Positions 5,409-16,933 of a stretch of DNA of 47,079 nucleotides are shown one piece after another (the stretch's first letter is position 1; every line of letters starts with the position of its first letter). Source of the stretch: Thermoproteota archaeon (lineage in GTDB: Archaea; Korarchaeota; Korarchaeia; Korarchaeales; Korarchaeaceae); NCBI GenBank assembly GCA_027078475.1, contig JALWYH010000096.1:1-47079 (forward strand). Direction: 5' to 3'. The position numbers and the translations under genes were made by a program. The notes below the pieces were generated by a model. That model saw nothing but the letters and a program-made list of their open reading frames with translations. It ran no database searches and had not been told where the DNA came from.

Positions 5409-6247
5409 GGATCGCCCTGGTCTACGAGAGGCTCAGGGAGGAGGAGAGACAGATAATAAGGGCCATAGAGAAGCTGGGACACGAGCCCGTCCCGCTTCAC
5501 CTCAACTCGAACTTCCTGCCAATAAACCACGGCGAGACCTTCGGGGCCGAGGTGGCCGTAATCAGGGCCATGAGCACGGCGAAGGCGCATGCCTCGGCGA
5601 TAACCCTGTCTAGCCTGGGTGTGAGGGTGGTCAACCTGCCGGACGTGATCGCCACATGCGGCAACAAGCTGGTCACCACCGCCAGGCTCTCCGAGGCCGG
5701 CATTCCCACCCCGAGGACGGCCGTTGCCTTCTCGCTTGATGGAGCCTTGGAGGCCGCCGAGTCAATCGGATACCCCGTGGTGGTGAAGCCCGTAAACGGC
5801 AGCTGGGGCAGGCTGGTCTCCCTGGCCCAGGACGAGGAGGAGCTGAGAACCATCCTCGAGCACAGGGAGGCAATTCCATCACCTTATTACAGGATCCACT
5901 ACATTCAGGAGTTCATAAGGAAGCCCGGCAGGGACATAAGGGCCTACGGGACGGAGAAATCCTTCATAACGGCCATATACAGAGTCTCAGAGCACTGGGT
6001 CACCAACACTGCCAGGGGGGCGAGGGCCGTCCCCGCCGAGCCGAGCGAGGAACTGGCGGATCTCGTCATCAGAACAGCCAGGGCTGTAGGTGGTGGCTTC
6101 CTGGGAATCGACATAGCAGAGGACGAGGAGAGGGGCCTGGTGGTCATAGAGGTCAATGCGGTGACCGAGTACAAGAACGCGGCCAGGGTCACCGGGGTGG
6201 ACATCGCAGGAGAGCTGGTCAGGTACGCCTTGGGTGAGGGTGAGTAG
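5405..6247 (+). CDS. lysX: LysW-aminoadipate ligase LysX (ATP-grasp)
   Basis: This is the second ATP-grasp ligase of the operon, 280 residues, directly downstream of its carrier LysW. It has the complete N-terminus MRIALVYERL that the first copy lacks, GSWGR near residues 131-135, and the C-terminal EVNAVTEYKN segment followed by TGVDIAGE, which resembles the EFKN/TGVDI ending of Thermus LysX. I therefore assign this copy to the lysine branch, with moderate confidence on substrate and high confidence on family. The start ATG overlaps the lysW stop. The gene overlaps the GTG start of lysJ by 14 bases. Confidence 0.9.
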   Translation: MRIALVYERLREEERQIIRAIEKLGHEPVPLHLNSNFLPINHGETFGAEVAVIRAMSTAKAHASAITLSSLGVRVVNLPDVIATCGNKLVTTARLSEAGIPTPRTAVAFSLDGALEAAESIGYPVVVKPVNGSWGRLVSLAQDEEELRTILEHREAIPSPYYRIHYIQEFIRKPGRDIRAYGTEKSFITAIYRVSEHWVTNTARGARAVPAEPSEELADLVIRTARAVGGGFLGIDIAEDEERGLVVIEVNAVTEYKNAARVTGVDIAGELVRYALGEGE

Positions 6248-7379
6248 CGTGGTATCGCTCATCTCCTTCCACGGTTTCAGGGGGCTAAAGCTGGTGAGGG
6301 GCGAGGGCCAGTACGTGTGGGACTCCGAAGGGAGACGTTACCTAGACGCGCATACGGGACATGGAGCTGCTTTCCTGGGTCACAGGCCTCCGAGGGTGGT
6401 CGAGGCCATCGAGGAGCAGCTGGGATCCATAATGGTGGTCACGCCGAGCTTCATCAGCGAGTCCATGGAGAAATGCCTTCATTCGCTGGCGAAAATTCTT
6501 CCTAGGGAGCTTAACAATGTCTACTTCCAGAACAGCGGTACCGAGGCAGTGGAGCTGGCTCTAAAGCTTGCCTTCAAGGCCACCGGTAGGAAGGGCGTCG
6601 TGTCCTTCATGGGCAGCTTTCACGGCAGGACCCTCGGCTCCCTATCCGCGACGTGGAACCCCAAGTACAGGGATGGCTATCCTCTCATCGACGTGAAGTT
6701 CGGGAAGTTCAACGACCCGTCCTCCGCCGATCTGGTTGGTGACGATACCGCGGCCGTGATCGTCGAGCCGGTACAGGGTGAGGGAGGGGTCAAGCCCTCG
6801 AACCCCGACTTCCTGAGGGAGCTGAGAAGGGCCTGCGACGAGCACGGTGCGGTCCTGATCTTCGACGAGGTCCAGAGCGGATTCGGCAGGACCGGCTCTG
6901 TCTGGGCCCACTCCACCAGGGGGGTGGAGCCCGATGTGATGACGGCCGGGAAGAGCATGGGTGGTGGCTTCCCCGTCAGCATGGTCGCAGCTAGGGACTG
7001 GATTGTGGGGGCTCTGAGGGGCGGGGAGCACGGCTCCACTCATGGGGGAAATCCCCTGGCATGCGCTGCCGTTCACGGGGGTGTGGAGACCCTCCTGGCC
7101 GATGGGGTGCCAGCCAGGGCTGCCGAGATGGGAGGTAAGCTCATGGAGGGGCTCGAGGATCTGAGGTCGCGCCTGGTGAGGGGGGTCAGGGGCGAGGGAC
7201 TCATGCTGGGGTTGGAGCTGAGGAGGGACTCCGGTCCCATCATAAGGGGGCTGCAGCGCAGGGGAATACTCGCCCTCAGGGCGGGCAGGACCGTGCTGAG
7301 GCTTCTCCCCCCCTACATGATAACGGATGAGGACGTCGGAAGGATCTTGGAGGAGATCGGGAGTGCCCTTGGGAGTTGA
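6234..7379 (+). CDS. lysJ: LysW-lysine/ornithine aminotransferase (LysJ/ArgD)
   Basis: This is a class III PLP aminotransferase that converts the LysW-bound semialdehyde into LysW-lysine or LysW-ornithine. Seen: the PLP-site motif IFDEVQSGFGRTG, the Schiff-base lysine in TAGKSMGGG at about residue 239, and QNSGTEAVE for phosphate binding near 100. Length 381 is typical. GTG 6234 overlaps the end of lysX; GTG 6240 is an equally good alternative two codons later. The gene overlaps lysK by 17 bases. As the only such enzyme in the operon it is expected to be bifunctional. Confidence 0.93.
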   Translation: MRVSSVVSLISFHGFRGLKLVRGEGQYVWDSEGRRYLDAHTGHGAAFLGHRPPRVVEAIEEQLGSIMVVTPSFISESMEKCLHSLAKILPRELNNVYFQNSGTEAVELALKLAFKATGRKGVVSFMGSFHGRTLGSLSATWNPKYRDGYPLIDVKFGKFNDPSSADLVGDDTAAVIVEPVQGEGGVKPSNPDFLRELRRACDEHGAVLIFDEVQSGFGRTGSVWAHSTRGVEPDVMTAGKSMGGGFPVSMVAARDWIVGALRGGEHGSTHGGNPLACAAVHGGVETLLADGVPARAAEMGGKLMEGLEDLRSRLVRGVRGEGLMLGLELRRDSGPIIRGLQRRGILALRAGRTVLRLLPPYMITDEDVGRILEEIGSALGS

Positions 7380-8388
7380 CGAGGTCCTGTTGAGGCTCCT
7401 AGAAGCCTACAGCCCAACGGGACGGGAGGACGAGGCCAGGGAGGTTCTGGTGGAGGTATCTCGGGCCTTGGGATTGAATGTCAGGGTAGATGGGGTCGGC
7501 AACGTGCTGGCCACCAAGGGAGGAGGGGGGAGGGTCTGGCTGGTGGGCCACTACGACACGGTCCCAGGGAGGCTGCCGGTGAGGAAGATAGATGGAAGGA
7601 TTTACGGCAGGGGGGCCGTGGACGCCAAGGGTCCCCTGTCCTCCATGCTCGTTGCCGCGTCCCTGGCCGAAGCCCCGGTTACTGTGGCGGCGCTGGTGGG
7701 TGAGGAGGGGGATAGCAGGGGCGCCAGGCATCTCCTCTCCGGCGAGCTGCCTCCCTACGTTGTGATAGGGGAACCCTCCAACACAACCGGCGTGATAGTG
7801 GCCTACAGGGGAGGGGCTCACCTGACCCTTAGGTGTTCCGCCCCCGGGGGTCACTCCTCCTCGCCGGGACGCTCTGCCATTGATCTCCTGCTGGAGTCGA
7901 TTATGAGGATGAGAGAAGTGGCTCCTGGGAACGCATACGACGAGCCCAGCGCGGCTGTGACCATGATCAGGGGAGGGGAAGCACCAAACGTCCTTCCCAG
8001 AAGAGCTGAGGCAAGCATAGACCTCAGGATACCGCCGGGCCATGATCTCGCCTCCATCCTGGAGAAGCTGGAGAGATCTCTTCCAGACGGCTGCTCCCTC
8101 GAGGTGGGGTGGAGGGTGCCCCCAGTATCGGTCAGGCCGGGTGATCCGGTCCCGAGGGCCCTGATGAGATCAATAATCCCCATGGGGAGAAAGCCGAGGC
8201 TTGTGAGGAAGTACGGATCCAGTGACATGAACCTACTCCACGCGAGGGTTAGGAGCATAGCGGCCTACGGTCCTGGGGATGGGAGGCTGGCCCACACGGA
8301 CGGGGAGTTCGTCGACGTGAGGGACTTGGAATTCGCCGTGGAGGTTTACAAGGGAGCCGTGGAGTACCTCAACCGATTTTTAAGGTGA
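7363..8388 (+). CDS. lysK: LysW-lysine/ornithine hydrolase (LysK/ArgE, M20 family)
   Basis: This is a metal-dependent M20 peptidase that releases lysine or ornithine from LysW and regenerates the carrier. Metal ligands and catalytic residues are visible in VGHYDTVPG, GRGAVDAKGP and VGEEGDSRGA, with IGEPSN following, which is the LysK pattern. I chose GTG 7363 (product begins with V-P-L-G-V-D-E); TTG 7369 is possible, and the farther upstream start at 7327 would extend deep into lysJ. About 341 residues, normal for the family. It completes the pathway from aminoadipate or glutamate. Its stop overlaps a GTG of the following radical SAM gene (GTGA). Confidence 0.92.
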   Translation: MPLGVDEVLLRLLEAYSPTGREDEAREVLVEVSRALGLNVRVDGVGNVLATKGGGGRVWLVGHYDTVPGRLPVRKIDGRIYGRGAVDAKGPLSSMLVAASLAEAPVTVAALVGEEGDSRGARHLLSGELPPYVVIGEPSNTTGVIVAYRGGAHLTLRCSAPGGHSSSPGRSAIDLLLESIMRMREVAPGNAYDEPSAAVTMIRGGEAPNVLPRRAEASIDLRIPPGHDLASILEKLERSLPDGCSLEVGWRVPPVSVRPGDPVPRALMRSIIPMGRKPRLVRKYGSSDMNLLHARVRSIAAYGPGDGRLAHTDGEFVDVRDLEFAVEVYKGAVEYLNRFLR

Positions 8389-9557
8389 TTCTATTCTCCT
8401 ATTCTAGTCCACGAGGGAGAGGAGGGTTCGACCTGCTGATCAGACTTTCCGACATGCTGAAGGAGAAGCAGGCGATCAGGGAGAGACTGGCCTCTAGGCT
8501 GGATAGGAGGGAGAGGAAGGAGGCGCTCGATGATCCTCATGCCCACAGGGAGCCGAGGCCCTGCGGTCTCACAATTCATCCCGGGAGGGGGTGCACCTTC
8601 TCCTGCGTCTACTGCTACATAGAGGACATGGGCATTCCTAGGGAGCCGAGGAGGCATGGTCTTTCCGGTACTCAGCTGGCCTACGCGGTGGCCTCAAATC
8701 CCTATACCCTCCTCGGAAGGCACGGTACCTTCCTGGCCTTCGGATCGGTGACGGAGCCTTTCCTCCCCTCGATAAAGGAGAGGACCGTAGAGTACTTGGA
8801 GGCCGTTTCGCGCAGCTTGGGCAATCCCACCCAGTTCTCCACCAAGGCTTACCTTCAGGAGGACGATGCTCGAATCCTAGCGGCGATCGATCCGCAGATC
8901 AGCGCCCTTGTGACTGTACCTGCTCTCACCTGGGCGAGGAGGCTCGAACCCGGAGCCCCGTCCCCCGAGCTGAGGTTCCGCACCCTTGAAAACCTCCTGA
9001 AGTTTGGGATACACTCTTCCCTCTTCCTGAGACCGCTTATTCCTGGAGTGAGTGAGGTAGACGGTCCTCCCATCTTGGAGCGAGCCGCCGATATAGGAGT
9101 GAGGGGCGTGGTCATGGGGGCTCTGAGGGTCACCACAAGGATCCTGAGGAGGCTCGAGGCGATGGGCCTCTCGGGCCTGAAGGACAGGATAGTGAGGCAA
9201 CCTAGGTCTCCCGACGATCAGGTGCCCCTCAACACGGGAGACCTGAAGAGGATGCTCTCTCACATGGCTAGGAAGTTGGGGCTAAGGGTTTTCCCCTCAG
9301 CCTGCTCCGCCAACGTCGATTCCCACGGTCTGGGCTGCCGCATGTGCGACATGGGTCCGTGCGGGGAGAACTTGCCGGAGTATGATCCCGAGGAGCTGGA
9401 GCAGGCGCTGTCGGGCCTCGGGATAGAGGTAAGAATAGTCCCCCGCGGGGAGGGGATACTGGCCCTGATCAAAGGAGGCTCCAAGAAGGCTAGGAGGGTC
9501 AAGCACCTAGTCTCCACCGCCACCAAGAGGATGGTGAGGGTCAGGAAACTCGCCTGA
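8385..9557 (+). CDS. Radical SAM protein related to the SplB family
   Basis: The cluster-binding CX3CX2C motif (GCTFSCVYCY) is at about residue 69 and is followed by IEDMG. The later LAFGSVTEPF recalls the conserved SxTDPYxPxE segment of SplB/COG1533 proteins. A second cysteine group near residues 305-325 (SACSAN, GCRMCDMGPC) could bind another iron-sulfur cluster. Substrate unknown; the family name is not proof of DNA repair. Start is uncertain: GTG 8385 is coupled to lysK (GTGA), but a TATA-like GATTTTTAAG at 8375-8384 would place transcription start after that GTG and favour ATG 8454. It may be an independent gene that happens to sit after the LysW operon. Confidence 0.75.
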   Translation: MILFSYSSPRGRGGFDLLIRLSDMLKEKQAIRERLASRLDRRERKEALDDPHAHREPRPCGLTIHPGRGCTFSCVYCYIEDMGIPREPRRHGLSGTQLAYAVASNPYTLLGRHGTFLAFGSVTEPFLPSIKERTVEYLEAVSRSLGNPTQFSTKAYLQEDDARILAAIDPQISALVTVPALTWARRLEPGAPSPELRFRTLENLLKFGIHSSLFLRPLIPGVSEVDGPPILERAADIGVRGVVMGALRVTTRILRRLEAMGLSGLKDRIVRQPRSPDDQVPLNTGDLKRMLSHMARKLGLRVFPSACSANVDSHGLGCRMCDMGPCGENLPEYDPEELEQALSGLGIEVRIVPRGEGILALIKGGSKKARRVKHLVSTATKRMVRVRKLA

Positions 9558-11937: not shown

Positions 11938-12984
11938 TCAGATCTCTAACTCATCCAAGAAATCAGGCAGCCAGGAGAACATGTCCCTCGATACCCTGGC
12001 GACCATGTCGATCCCGACTACCTCGCTAGGATACACGGGAATGTAGGACCTGACTAGGGGACCCAGGTCCCTCTCTATCTCAGCCATGTATCCCAGCTGC
12101 TCCCTGTACTTGTTCCTAATGTACTCGTTCGTGGTCGCCTCTGCCACCGATTTGGGGATGACTTGGTTAACGATGACACCGCCCACCGGTATGTCGAAGC
12201 CCCTCACCATCTTGATGAACCTCTTCACCACGGCTATGGGCAGCGACAGAGGCAGGGTGACGAAGAAGAACGCGGTGAGCTCGTCGTTCAGCAGAACGTC
12301 TTTCACTCTGTTGAATCTGTCCTGCATCGACAGGAGATCTGCCATCAGGGGATCCTTCTTTATCTCCTCCATTACCTTCTCCTTGCGGAAGGAAAGTTTG
12401 ACCCTGAGCGACAGGGCCTCCTTTCTGCTCTCTATCATCCTCTCCAGCCAGAGCCCGTATATCTTGCTTAGCCCTATGAGCCTGGCAGCGTTGGCCACGG
12501 CGGCCGTGTCGAAGACCACGGCATCGTATTCCTCGCCCTGCTGCAGCACCACGTCCATCATCTTGTCGAACATGGCCGACTCCTGGAATGCCGGGTTGGT
12601 GGTGGCTATGTCTATGAACGGCTTGGGGTCCATGGGTATGTCGGCCCACTTGAGGAACTCCGACAGCCTCCTAGCTATGTTCTGCTTGTACTTCTCGACC
12701 ACGTCCGCTATCTCCACCTCCAAGGCGTAGAGGTTCGGGGCCCCCTCCACGGCCTTTATGACCCCTCCCCTGAGGTCCTGGCCGAAGAGGCTGGAAAGTG
12801 AGTGGACGGGATTCAGCGAGACCAGCAGGGTCCTCTTACCGTCCTGGGCAAATTTGTACGCGAGGCCGGCTGCGGATACTGTCTTCCCGACCCCTCCCTT
12901 CCCGCCGGTGAAGAGGAACTTGAGCTTGGGCCTGCTAGCCAGGAACTCGGGCATCAGGACCTTCTCCTTCAGGCTCACCACCAT
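11938..12984 (-). CDS. ArsA/Get3-like ATPase with altered catalytic site
   Basis: A 348-residue member of the ArsA/Get3 branch of deviant Walker A NTPases. The P-loop GGKGGVGKT at about 27-35 is intact. Switch I, which reads STDPAHS-like in Get3/ArsA, is SLNPVHS here: Asn58 replaces the catalytic Asp, the same change as the D57N ATPase-dead allele of yeast Get3. Switch II reads FDTAAVANAARL and lacks the usual G-H. The C-terminal YIPVYPSEVVG resembles other ArsA proteins. No CxxC zinc motif is present. The ATG overlaps the end of the upstream ATPase gene by 10 bases, so the two are co-translated and probably form a heterodimer in which this subunit binds but hardly hydrolyses ATP (inference). 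Role in arsenite transport is unlikely to be provable from sequence. Confidence 0.88.
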   Translation of the reverse strand: MVVSLKEKVLMPEFLASRPKLKFLFTGGKGGVGKTVSAAGLAYKFAQDGKRTLLVSLNPVHSLSSLFGQDLRGGVIKAVEGAPNLYALEVEIADVVEKYKQNIARRLSEFLKWADIPMDPKPFIDIATTNPAFQESAMFDKMMDVVLQQGEEYDAVVFDTAAVANAARLIGLSKIYGLWLERMIESRKEALSLRVKLSFRKEKVMEEIKKDPLMADLLSMQDRFNRVKDVLLNDELTAFFFVTLPLSLPIAVVKRFIKMVRGFDIPVGGVIVNQVIPKSVAEATTNEYIRNKYREQLGYMAEIERDLGPLVRSYIPVYPSEVVGIDMVARVSRDMFSWLPDFLDELEI

Positions 12985-13976
12985 AGCAGGTCCCTCCTGG
13001 AGTGCATCAGATCCTCGGCCACCCTCGCAATCATCTCCAGCCCCTTGGGCTCCCTGTCGTACATCGGGATGAGGGCCGCCACCAAGTCACCGAACTTCTC
13101 CCTTATCTCGATCAGATGCTTCTCCTGCATCTCTATCTTCTTCCTCAGGAGGTCCGGAAGGTCAGGCTTGTTGAGCAGGTCCCTCGGATATATCTGGTTC
13201 ACGACCACGCCCGACATCTCTATGTTAAGCTCCCTGAACATCTCAAGGGCCCTCTCGGTGTCCAAGATGGCCATCTTCTCGGGAACCATCACCATGAAGA
13301 AGGCGGTCCTCTCGGAATCCGTCATGAGCTCCGTGAACGTGGTCATCTTCCTCCTTATCTCCTCAAGTTCCTTCAGGACCATGTCCTCGGTCTGCATCCC
13401 CCCCTTCAGGGTCGCCGCCACTGCCTCATACTCGGCGGCCTCCTTCCTTGCCTCGGTTATCTTGTCGACCCACGCGCTGAGTATCTCGGCCATGGCCACC
13501 ATCCTGACGCCGTGGCCGAAGGGCGGCATGTCGAACACATAAAGGTCGTACTCCCCCGAGGCGACCAGATCGGCCATGGCATCGTAGGTGGCCGACTCGT
13601 ACATGGCAGGCTCGGCTGACGTGCTGTCTATATACTCCTCTATCTCCTTGGGGAGCTCTTCCAGACCGTACATGTCCAGTATCTTCTGCTTGATCTCCTG
13701 CTGGTACTCAGCTATCTTCTTGTCCGCATCTATCTCCACCACGTACAGGTTGGGCGCGACCTCCACAACGCCCTTGCCATATAGGTCCCTCTCGAATATG
13801 TCGCTCAACGATGCCTGTGGATCGGTGCTGAAGCAGAGGACCTTCTTACCCTCCTTGACCGCCATGTAGTAGCTCAGGGCGGCGCTGCTGGTTGTCTTTC
13901 CCAGCCCTCCCTTGCCAGCGAAGACGACGACCTCCACATTGGGCTTCCTCTCGAAGAACTCGGCCAGACCGACCAT
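12975..13976 (-). CDS. ArsA/Get3-like ATPase, catalytically complete partner
   Basis: Second ArsA/Get3-like ATPase, 333 residues from ATG 13976. The P-loop is AGKGGLGKTT (Leu for the usual Val). Switch I is STDPQASLSD, keeping the catalytic Asp52 but changing the usual AH to QA; switch II is FDMPPFGHGVRM and keeps G-H. It therefore complements the partner gene, which has lost both features. I prefer ATG 13976 because GGTGGTGAT precedes it; TTG 13991 is the longer alternative. No CxxC motif, so dimerisation would differ from zinc-linked Get3. It lies 35 bases after a small hydrophobic-protein gene, in one direction with cstA. Confidence 0.88.
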   Translation of the reverse strand: MVGLAEFFERKPNVEVVVFAGKGGLGKTTSSAALSYYMAVKEGKKVLCFSTDPQASLSDIFERDLYGKGVVEVAPNLYVVEIDADKKIAEYQQEIKQKILDMYGLEELPKEIEEYIDSTSAEPAMYESATYDAMADLVASGEYDLYVFDMPPFGHGVRMVAMAEILSAWVDKITEARKEAAEYEAVAATLKGGMQTEDMVLKELEEIRRKMTTFTELMTDSERTAFFMVMVPEKMAILDTERALEMFRELNIEMSGVVVNQIYPRDLLNKPDLPDLLRKKIEMQEKHLIEIREKFGDLVAALIPMYDREPKGLEMIARVAEDLMHSRRDLLWW

Positions 13977-14011: not shown

Positions 14012-14317
14012 TCAGCCACTCAGCAGGTCCGTGAAGTCCCTCTCCCTGAACAGTCTCTCCTTCCACGCCTTTATGTTCGGCACGACATAGGGTAGGATCC
14101 TCAGCGAGTAATAGGGCGGTATGATCGGAAAGCCCAGCATGTCTCCCAAGGTCATGAGCATGAATAGGTGCTCCATGTGCATCCTAGTCTTCAGGGCCGC
14201 TGTGGCGGCTCCGTGGACCGCGAATCCGTAGAGAACCCCTTTGAGGGCCTCGGAGAACCCCTCTCTCCCCTCCACCTTCTTCTCCTTCTTTTTACGAAAT
14301 AAGGGGATCCGAACCAC
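14012..14317 (-). CDS. Small hydrophobic protein with C-terminal RERD motif (paralogue 1)
   Basis: A 101-residue protein of no family I recognise. It has a basic N-terminus (FRKKKEKK), a moderately hydrophobic stretch at about 25-42, a strongly hydrophobic segment at 51-82 containing LGDMLGFP and RILPYVVP, and a charged tail KAWKERLFRERD at 83-94. Positions 57-94 align without gaps to positions 42-79 of the protein encoded at 16210-16476, with 18 of 38 residues identical. I chose GTG 14317 because GGGAGGTG covers it and a TATA box at 14343-14353 gives a nearly leaderless start; the frame continues upstream into cstA but without support. It sits between cstA and the ArsA pair, so it may be a partner of either. 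Confidence 0.75.
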   Translation of the reverse strand: MVRIPLFRKKKEKKVEGREGFSEALKGVLYGFAVHGAATAALKTRMHMEHLFMLMTLGDMLGFPIIPPYYSLRILPYVVPNIKAWKERLFRERDFTDLLSG

Positions 14318-14355: not shown

Positions 14356-16092
14356 TTAGGGAGAGACCGCCTTGGCCTCTACCTCGCCTCTCCTGGCCCT
14401 TGCATAGGCACTCCACAGGGCATAGCTCATGTAGAGACCCAAGACGAAGAGCACGATCCCAACGAAGAAGAATACAACGTTGAGGGCCCATGCTGCCGCG
14501 GGATAGCTGGTAAGCGGTGGCTTGGCGAACGGTTTCCTCAGCCCGAAGGTGACGAGGCCGAACACGTAGGTCTCCCAGAGGAGGGCCGCCAGCGTCACCA
14601 AGGTCATGAAGGCGGCAGGAGCGGCTGCGTACCAGGTAGGCTTCCTCATCTTAGCCACGTAGAAGGCCACGAGCGTGAGGGCCATGGCCGCGAGGAGCTG
14701 ATTGCTTCCTCCGAAGTATATCCAAAGTTCTATCCAGCTTCCGGTGAGCGCGAATACTATGGGGAGCAGCAGCCCGACGGCGGTGGCCACGTACTTGTTG
14801 CCCAGGATCTTCCAGCTTCCCCTTCTGAACAGCTCGGCGCTGAAGACGCGCCAGTACCTAGTGACCAGCGTCTGGACCGTTATGGCGTATATCACCAGGA
14901 ATATGGAGAAGAACGTCAGGAGGTAGGCCTTTGACATCTCTCCTCCGAGGAAGGGAGCGGTGAGCAGTGTGGCTCCGTTCACGAAGGCCGATATCTTGCC
15001 CTTGGCTATGAGATCGGGTGAGACCACCATGTAGGCTGCCAGGGCCGAGGTGGCCAGTAGGCCCTCGGTGAGCATGGCCCCAGCCCCGACCGGCCTGGCG
15101 TCCGTCTCCACATCAAGCTGCTTCCCGGTGGTGGAGGTGCTGACCAGGCTGTGCCATCCTGATATGGCCCCGCATGCTATGGAGACGAAGAGTATAGGAA
15201 ACAGGGGACCAACGTTCTCGACGTACCATCCCTTGAAGGCCGGCTGGAGGAGCTTTATCCCAGTGACCGGTGATATTAAGGCCCCGAAGATAATCAGGAG
15301 AACTCCACCGATGGCTGGGAAGACGGCGACGAAGTTCATTGGGGTTATGAACTTGGGGAGAGGAACTATCGCCCCTATGAAGAGGATCACCGCCAGTATG
15401 ATGGACCATATCTGGACCGACCACTGCCCGAAGTAGTTCTTCGGGGGCCAGGCGACGACCGTGCCGATTCCCACGCTCACCAGCGTCAGTATGATGGCGA
15501 GAGCGGTTACGCCGAATATGTTTGCCTTGTACTTGTAGAGAAGCTCTCCCACGATGAGCCCCGTGATTATTATGCCGATGGTGGCTATGAAGGAACCCGG
15601 GAAGACGTTCCAGAAGAGTGAGACGAGGTATATGAAGACAGCTGAGATTATCAGAAGGTAGAACAGGAGATAGGCCAGCAGGATCTTTCTGCCCCTCTCT
15701 CCAATGGCGTTATAGACGAGTGGTCCCATGGACCTGCCCTCGTTCCTCACTGTGAGCATTATCGTGCTGTAGTCTTGGACCCAGCCGATGAACATGTTCC
15801 CTATCACTATCCATATGAGGGCAGGGAGCCAACCGTAGGCGACTGCTATGAACGGGCCAAGGATCGGTCCCAGTGCGGCTATGCTCTTAAACTGGAACCC
15901 GTAGAGGACGTATCTGCTCACTGGGAAGTACTCGACTCCGTCGAGGTACATGTGAGCAGGGGTGGTCCTCCTCTCGCTCACCTCCCATATGTGCTCGTCG
16001 ACCCACCTCGCGTAGACGTAATAGGCGAAGGCGTAGGCCACGAGAGCCCCTATTATCCACATGGAGGGGGTCTCCAAGAACGCGACCTGCAT
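14356..16092 (-). CDS. cstA: CstA family carbon-starvation transporter
   Basis: A 578-residue polytopic membrane protein of the CstA family, which in bacteria imports peptides or pyruvate during nutrient limitation. Family features: N-terminal YYVYARWVDEHIWE, the RRTTPAHMYLDGVEYFP segment near 40-57, LGPILGPFIAVAYGWLP near 75-90, and the SGWHSLVSTSTTGKQ segment near 318-332. More than a dozen hydrophobic helices are visible. Bacterial CstA needs a small DUF466 partner; none is here, but two unrelated small hydrophobic proteins flank it. The start ATG 16092 lies about 25 bases from a TATA element at 16111-16120, implying a leaderless mRNA. Confidence 0.92.
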   Translation of the reverse strand: MQVAFLETPSMWIIGALVAYAFAYYVYARWVDEHIWEVSERRTTPAHMYLDGVEYFPVSRYVLYGFQFKSIAALGPILGPFIAVAYGWLPALIWIVIGNMFIGWVQDYSTIMLTVRNEGRSMGPLVYNAIGERGRKILLAYLLFYLLIISAVFIYLVSLFWNVFPGSFIATIGIIITGLIVGELLYKYKANIFGVTALAIILTLVSVGIGTVVAWPPKNYFGQWSVQIWSIILAVILFIGAIVPLPKFITPMNFVAVFPAIGGVLLIIFGALISPVTGIKLLQPAFKGWYVENVGPLFPILFVSIACGAISGWHSLVSTSTTGKQLDVETDARPVGAGAMLTEGLLATSALAAYMVVSPDLIAKGKISAFVNGATLLTAPFLGGEMSKAYLLTFFSIFLVIYAITVQTLVTRYWRVFSAELFRRGSWKILGNKYVATAVGLLLPIVFALTGSWIELWIYFGGSNQLLAAMALTLVAFYVAKMRKPTWYAAAPAAFMTLVTLAALLWETYVFGLVTFGLRKPFAKPPLTSYPAAAWALNVVFFFVGIVLFVLGLYMSYALWSAYARARRGEVEAKAVSP

Positions 16093-16209: not shown

Positions 16210-16476
16210 TCAAACCGTCTCGGGAACATCCTCGGTGATGTCTCTCTCCCTGAGCTGCCTTTTCTTCCATCCTTCCAGCTCGGGGAGCAGGTAAGGGAGT
16301 AGCCTGAGGAGCAGGGGAGTAGTCATCAGAGGTATGCCTAGGAACTCCCCCAGTAGGAGGAGGTTCACCGCGTCCCTGAGCTTGGCCGCCTCCCTCTTGG
16401 TGTCCCAGTAGAGATCGAAGTAGAAGAGCCCGAACAGGAAATCCCTCAAGGCCCCCTTAAACTCCTCCCATCTCAT
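16210..16476 (-). CDS. Small hydrophobic protein with C-terminal RERD motif (paralogue 2)
   Basis: An 88-residue paralogue of the protein at 14012-14317. Order: an amphipathic aromatic N-terminus (RDFLFGLFYFDLYWD), a charged turn at 26-36, a long hydrophobic segment at 37-66 with LGEFLGIP and RLLPYLLP, and a tail EGWKKRQLRERD at 68-79. The conserved core is LGxxLGxP, then RxLPYxxP, then W-K-x-R-x-x-R-E-R-D. It may form a membrane hairpin with the basic tail in the cytosol (inference). The ATG overlaps the end of the upstream gene by 20 bases, so it is co-translated with that unknown protein. No known family recognised. Confidence 0.75.
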   Translation of the reverse strand: MRWEEFKGALRDFLFGLFYFDLYWDTKREAAKLRDAVNLLLLGEFLGIPLMTTPLLLRLLPYLLPELEGWKKRQLRERDITEDVPETV

Positions 16477-16933
16477 GGCAGAGGACCCCTACCTCATCCA
16501 GTATCCTCTTCATGTCTAGGTGGGGCGGGCCCTTAAACATTATCTGAACGGTCCTGTCGGTGATGTCGCAGTAATGGACGGTCACGAGATGCTTCCTCTT
16601 CCTCCCGGTTATGAGGCCCCTTCCCACGTAGTATGTGGCTTGGTGTCCCCCAATCTCGGTCCTCCCACTCTCCTCTATCCTTATCCTTGGCTTCATCTCC
16701 TTCCTGCCTGGCCTTATCACGATCCTCATGTCCACTGCGTACTCTGGAGTGGCCAGCACGTGGTAGCTCTCTCCGTAGAGGACGTAGGCCAAGTGCCCCC
16801 TCCTCTCATACTGGGTGACATCGGCCCCGTAAGCGGTTGCCATGACCTCGGCCTCGTCTGGCACGGTGAGCACTAGGAAATCGACCGTCCCGAAGAGGGA
16901 GTTGACCGCCCTTATATTCACCCGCCTCATCAT
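16457..16933 (-). CDS. Hypothetical protein, soluble, beta-rich
   Basis: A 158-residue protein of no family I recognise. Alternating hydrophobic patterns (VDFLVLTVPD, GHLAYVLYG, MRIVIRPG, RIRIEESGRTEIGG, LVTVHYCD) suggest a beta-rich fold, followed by a helix near 140-150 (DMKRILDEVG). There is no membrane segment or signal peptide. Two cysteines occur, in HYCDIT and LCHEM. ATG 16933 (or 16930) lies 25 bases from the centre of a TATA element shared with the divergent gene, which fits a leaderless mRNA. It overlaps the small RERD protein gene by 20 bases and probably works with it. Confidence 0.7.
   Translation of the reverse strand: MMRRVNIRAVNSLFGTVDFLVLTVPDEAEVMATAYGADVTQYERRGHLAYVLYGESYHVLATPEYAVDMRIVIRPGRKEMKPRIRIEESGRTEIGGHQATYYVGRGLITGRKRKHLVTVHYCDITDRTVQIMFKGPPHLDMKRILDEVGVLCHEMGGV

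Follow-up and report, generated by a model that had tools for sequence, protein, structure and literature searches.

Do two neighbouring ATPases of the same fold, one of them apparently unable to hydrolyse ATP, work as a single unequal machine, and what would such a machine drive? The question is raised by a contig of 47,079 nucleotides (JALWYH010000096.1, assembly GCA_027078475.1; hereafter the window) from a Thermoproteota archaeon of the Korarchaeaceae. Two minus-strand genes in the window share 10 bases and encode members of the ArsA/Get3 superfamily: gene A (12975..13976, 333 residues) specifies an intact ATPase of this fold, and gene B (11938..12984, 348 residues) a degenerate one. Both products score above the family cut-offs (PF02374, 187 and 232 bits for the two proteins, cut-off 24.3; TIGR00345, 186 and 228 bits, cut-off 135), and they are 31% identical to each other in a profile alignment.

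The P-loop of A, GKGGLGKTT, starts at residue 21; its switch I, STDPQAS, contains the catalytic Asp52 (codon GAT, 13821..13823, minus strand), and its switch II, FDMPPFGHGVR, contains Gly154-His155. B has the P-loop GKGGVGKTV, starting at residue 28, and retains both the trans lysine of the GKGG loop (Lys29) and the Walker residues Lys34-Thr35. Its switch I is SLNPVHS, with Asn58 (codon AAT, 12811..12813, minus strand), and its switch II is FDTAAVANAAR, in which Ala164-Asn165 (codons 12490..12495, minus strand) replace the Gly-His of A and of Get3/ArsA. In Get3 the switch I aspartate positions the attacking water (PMC10248533), and a structure of ATP-bound Get3(D57N) has been deposited (9ns5). 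From the role of that aspartate, together with Asn58 and the missing Gly-His, the B half is predicted to bind nucleotide without hydrolysing it. An earlier note on this DNA had read the same motifs, and both overlapping reading frames are real; that note had also described the loss as complementary between the two proteins, which does not hold. No known catalytic residue is missing from A, so the loss is one-sided, and an active A-A homodimer is possible on catalytic grounds.

To learn how widely this asymmetry is distributed, 30 relatives were collected from a scan of genome contigs and further ones from whole-genome searches by phylum. These searches found relatives in 14 of the 29 genomes from the phylum to which the window belongs and, in the phyla of other matches, in 33 of 398 (Bathyarchaeota), 9 of 399 (Firmicutes), 36 of 350 (Chloroflexi), 8 of 228 (Asgard) and 2 of 4 (one further bacterial match). 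Motifs were counted over the resulting 101 loci, which include a few near-duplicates and span several archaeal and bacterial phyla, and neighbourhoods over 94 non-redundant loci. Switch I of B carries asparagine in 101/101 loci. In its switch II, 95 loci have VANA or TANA and the other 6 have VAHT, such that the glycine is lost in all 101 and the histidine in 95. In A, the aspartate is present in 97/97 readable rows and Gly-His in 99/99. The GKGG loop with its trans lysine is kept on both sides (101/101 B, 96/96 readable A). Orthologous pairs thus conserve both the asparagine and the missing Gly-His, and the uniformity of this pattern, set against STDPAHS in 28/28 Asgard Get3 proteins, shows that the asymmetry is no chance event. 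A few A or B genes contain a frame break or in-frame stop, which could reflect sequencing errors or decay; examples among A genes are L165 (6753-7586 and 7549-7983), G122 and G388.

The two genes are also inherited together. B is directly preceded by A on the same strand in 94/94 non-redundant loci, and in the 398-genome sample a search with B found 33 genomes, while a search with A found those 33 and one more, in which A lies at a contig edge. In the tree, A forms one clade and B another (support 100/99 for each), the two are sisters (99/97), and archaeal and bacterial members occur inside both; judged by this topology, A and B are products of one old duplication. Pairwise distances over 74 loci correlate at 0.95 for A and B, 0.91 for A and CstA (a transporter introduced below) and 0.89 for B and CstA, values to which shared descent contributes. 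That the two genes co-occur strictly, keep one order and are inherited in parallel supports the view that A and B would function as an obligate pair.

These data bear on the possibility that the two proteins never meet: A would act as a homodimer, and B would form a separate, ATP-locked homodimer that regulates A or CstA. Retention of every known catalytic residue in A is what such an arrangement would need. However, A and B were not seen apart save at contig ends, their genes are adjacent or overlapping, and their trees run in parallel; moreover, the GKGG trans-lysine loop of B would be catalytically useless in a dead B-B dimer. We consider two separate homodimers improbable. Taken together, the fixed asymmetry, the co-occurrence, the gene order and the sister clades argue for a heterodimer with a single hydrolysing site, which we regard as highly probable and well supported by its inheritance. 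The proposal of an obligate one-site heterodimer in the earlier note therefore stands as far as pairing goes, tempered by an intact A that might also dimerise with itself.

Unequal heterodimers of this fold are not without precedent. BagA and BagB of Mycobacterium tuberculosis (Rv3679/Rv3680, PDB 6bs3-6bs5) are likewise encoded by adjacent genes for ArsA/Get3-fold ATPases, have been co-crystallised and differ in their catalytic residues. The residues were read from chains A and B of 6bs3, which the query sequences matched nearly letter for letter. BagA has lost the aspartate (VEVEGRQ), whereas BagB has kept it and has lost the trans lysine (GAGG) and the Gly-His; B of the present pair, in contrast, keeps the lysine. 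The complementary pattern that had been ascribed to A and B is thus that of BagAB, and since loss is complementary in one case and one-sided in the other, two different residue splits gave unequal pairs. Neither A nor B is itself a Bag protein: the NCBIfam equivalog cut-offs for BagA and BagB rule this out, as the best scores were 58.5 and 38.3 bits against required values of 400 and 521. To our knowledge, no CstA gene lies beside bagAB.

What the pair might serve is suggested by its neighbours. Directly upstream of A lies cory1 (14012..14317, minus strand), which encodes a CstX-like protein of about 101 residues with a likely GTG start and a weak match to NF041419 (cory-CC-star). It is preceded by the gene for the carbon-starvation transporter CstA (14356..16092, minus strand; PF02554, E = 2.6e-105) and by cory2 (16210..16476, minus strand), which encodes a second CstX-like protein of 88 residues, recognised from a weak NF041419 match and a hidden Markov model of the paralogues. 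CstA was found within about 8 kb of the pair in 78 of the 94 loci, on the same strand in 65 and on the opposite strand in 13; 11 of the 16 loci without it are at contig edges. CstA is inverted relative to cory1-A-B and still adjacent in loci L144, L024, L019, L031 and L150. That it can be inverted in some lineages and remain a neighbour indicates that the linkage is independent of a single transcript. In 86/94 loci a cory gene immediately precedes A, and 68 loci have at least two.

A link between such ATPases and CstA has been published. Castillo and Saier (2010; PMC2963123) described operons containing an ArsA homologue, CstA and the small CstX, reported their co-evolution, and suggested that CstA draws its energy from the ArsA homologue, to which CstX would link it. 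Their clusters 14-18 consist, like A and B, of single-domain proteins of about 330 residues encoded with CstA and CstX, and A and B are a paired subtype of these CstA-linked homologues. Cluster 15 includes adjacent pairs in Pyrobaculum arsenaticum and Symbiobacterium thermophilum, in which a bacterial member groups with an archaeal one each time, as in A and B. From context and pairing we infer that these are the same A and B; both are named strains with sequenced genomes, and the pair is thus no artefact of metagenome assembly. The same study suggested that single-domain ArsAs may be homodimers, and it noted that the aspartate is replaceable only by asparagine, but did not assign the replacement to a particular partner within a pair. 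The link to CstA and two such pairs have accordingly been known since 2010, and BagAB had already provided the heterodimer precedent for the unequal sites that the earlier note proposed. What is new is a universal one-sided degeneration, unlike BagAB and unlike the version of the module that has a single ATPase, together with a sixth gene, for protein X, that is apparently undescribed.

We propose the following scheme. A and B would form an obligate heterodimer whose only hydrolysing site consists of the P-loop, Asp52 and Gly-His of A, completed by the trans lysine of B (GKGG). The B site would hold nucleotide without splitting it and so serve as a fixed or regulatory half, a one-site logic resembling that of heterodimeric ABC (ATP-binding cassette) transporters with one degenerate site. 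The heterodimer would dock on CstA through the small CstX/cory proteins and couple ATP hydrolysis to the transport or the gating of CstA, on the model of ArsA with ArsB. Because the pair accompanies CstA in archaea and bacteria alike, a lopsided motor for this transporter is its probable role, rather than that of a courier of membrane proteins. For the scheme as a whole, with its heterodimer, single active site, docking and coupling, we judge the case moderately favourable.

Several observations weigh against it. Contig edges set aside, 5/94 loci lack CstA over a range of about 8 kb. In Escherichia coli, CstA imports pyruvate with the small YbdD, no ArsA-type subunit being reported there, and it thus functions without such an ATPase (PMC5847655). 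The distance correlations partly reflect shared descent, and the intact A could act as a homodimer. Finally, other CstA modules run on one canonical ATPase, which implies that asymmetry is unnecessary for function. Modules of CstA and cory-CC-star with a single ATPase (STDPAHN, DTAPTGHT) occur in Cytobacillus, Pseudochrobactrum and Paracoccus; in Bacilli and Alphaproteobacteria the set has one canonical ATPase. This single ATPase keeps DP and TGH and is presumably a homodimer. The core genes are those of the present locus, although the cory protein of these modules ends in Cys-Cys.

The main rival to CstA coupling starts from the same heterodimer and gives it the work of an assembly chaperone, which would shield the hydrophobic cory/CstX proteins or segments of CstA and insert or assemble them in the manner of Get3. 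The structures predicted for the single chains of A and B (mean predicted local distance difference test scores of 83 and 82, the insert regions being partly of low confidence) have archaeal Get3 as their best structural match. The Get3/TRC40 proteins of Methanocaldococcus jannaschii (3ug6) and Methanothermobacter thermautotrophicus (3zq6) share the fold and the deviant P-loop and are the closest solved structures. This modelled Get3-like fold is what a chaperone would be expected to have; potential clients are at hand in cory1 and cory2, small proteins with hydrophobic stretches, the first of which directly precedes A, and the insert region of B, SFRKEKVMEEIKKDP, is unusually conserved, as expected with one dedicated partner. 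In other respects the pair departs from Get3. The CXXC zinc site of the Get3 dimer interface is present in 1/101 A, 0/101 B and 28/28 Asgard Get3 proteins, switch I is changed in both proteins (DPQAS, NPVHS), and the genes stand in a CstA operon. By a crude segmentation, the best 11-residue hydropathy of the insert is 0.56 in A and 0.73 in B, compared with 1.02 in Asgard Get3 and 1.59 in the M. jannaschii protein, and no receptor resembling Get1/Get2 was recognised among the identified neighbours. We regard Get3-style assembly as rather unlikely. Membership of the Get3 tail-anchor pathway itself was rejected on the missing CXXC; with that motif absent and A and B grouped among CstA-linked ArsA homologues, the Get3 homodimer, with which the earlier note had contrasted the pair, was the wrong frame.

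The ArsA_ATPase Pfam match also invites the reading of an ordinary arsenite-pump ATPase divided over two genes, and split pairs of single-domain ArsA do occur in ars operons (Alicyclobacillus). That split pair, however, retains DP and TGH in both halves and branches outside the A-B clade. Nor was an ars family found among the window neighbours scanned; instead CstA, the cory genes and the protein X gene described below adjoin the pair. A and B are separate chains of 333 and 348 residues, as against the single two-domain chain of about 600 residues in ArsA. Gene context and domain number led us to reject this assignment, which has very little to recommend it.

If CstA coupling is the correct reading, a heterodimeric one-site motor of ArsA type, conserved since an ancient duplication that archaea and bacteria have in common, could make the secondary transporter CstA ATP-coupled, with paired linkers and protein X. 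This would constitute primary active transport beyond the ABC and P-type systems, a wider claim that the comparisons allow but that we lean slightly against. The 2010 prediction that an ArsA homologue energises CstA was drawn from gene neighbourhoods and from comparing trees; we found no later test of it in the literature searched. A pair with one dead site offers a sharp handle, as single substitutions in A and in B should affect ATPase activity and transport oppositely and predictably. Within the family, unequal pairs are suggested to have arisen by at least two residue splits (A/B and BagAB), in parallel to heterodimeric ABC transporters.

The small genes of the module have features of their own. 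We infer from their size, their position and the cory-CC-star name used in single-ATPase modules that cory1 and cory2 correspond to CstX. They are paralogous, with cory1, the neighbour of A, the more conserved, and two cory genes accompany most two-ATPase loci; both lack the C-terminal Cys-Cys of cory-CC-star. A Pfam scan of the cory proteins and protein X gave no meaningful match, and cory1 matched none of the plasmid records. Protein X (158 residues; 16457..16933, minus strand) overlaps cory2, is often found beside it, and is encoded next to the module in 47/94 loci. It is apparently an undescribed sixth gene of the module, unless it is the counterpart of the longer CstY in the 2010 paper. 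On the plus strand, positions 6234-9557 of the window encode a LysJ/ArgD-type aminotransferase, a LysW-lysine hydrolase-type peptidase and a radical SAM protein, which are apparently unrelated to the pair.
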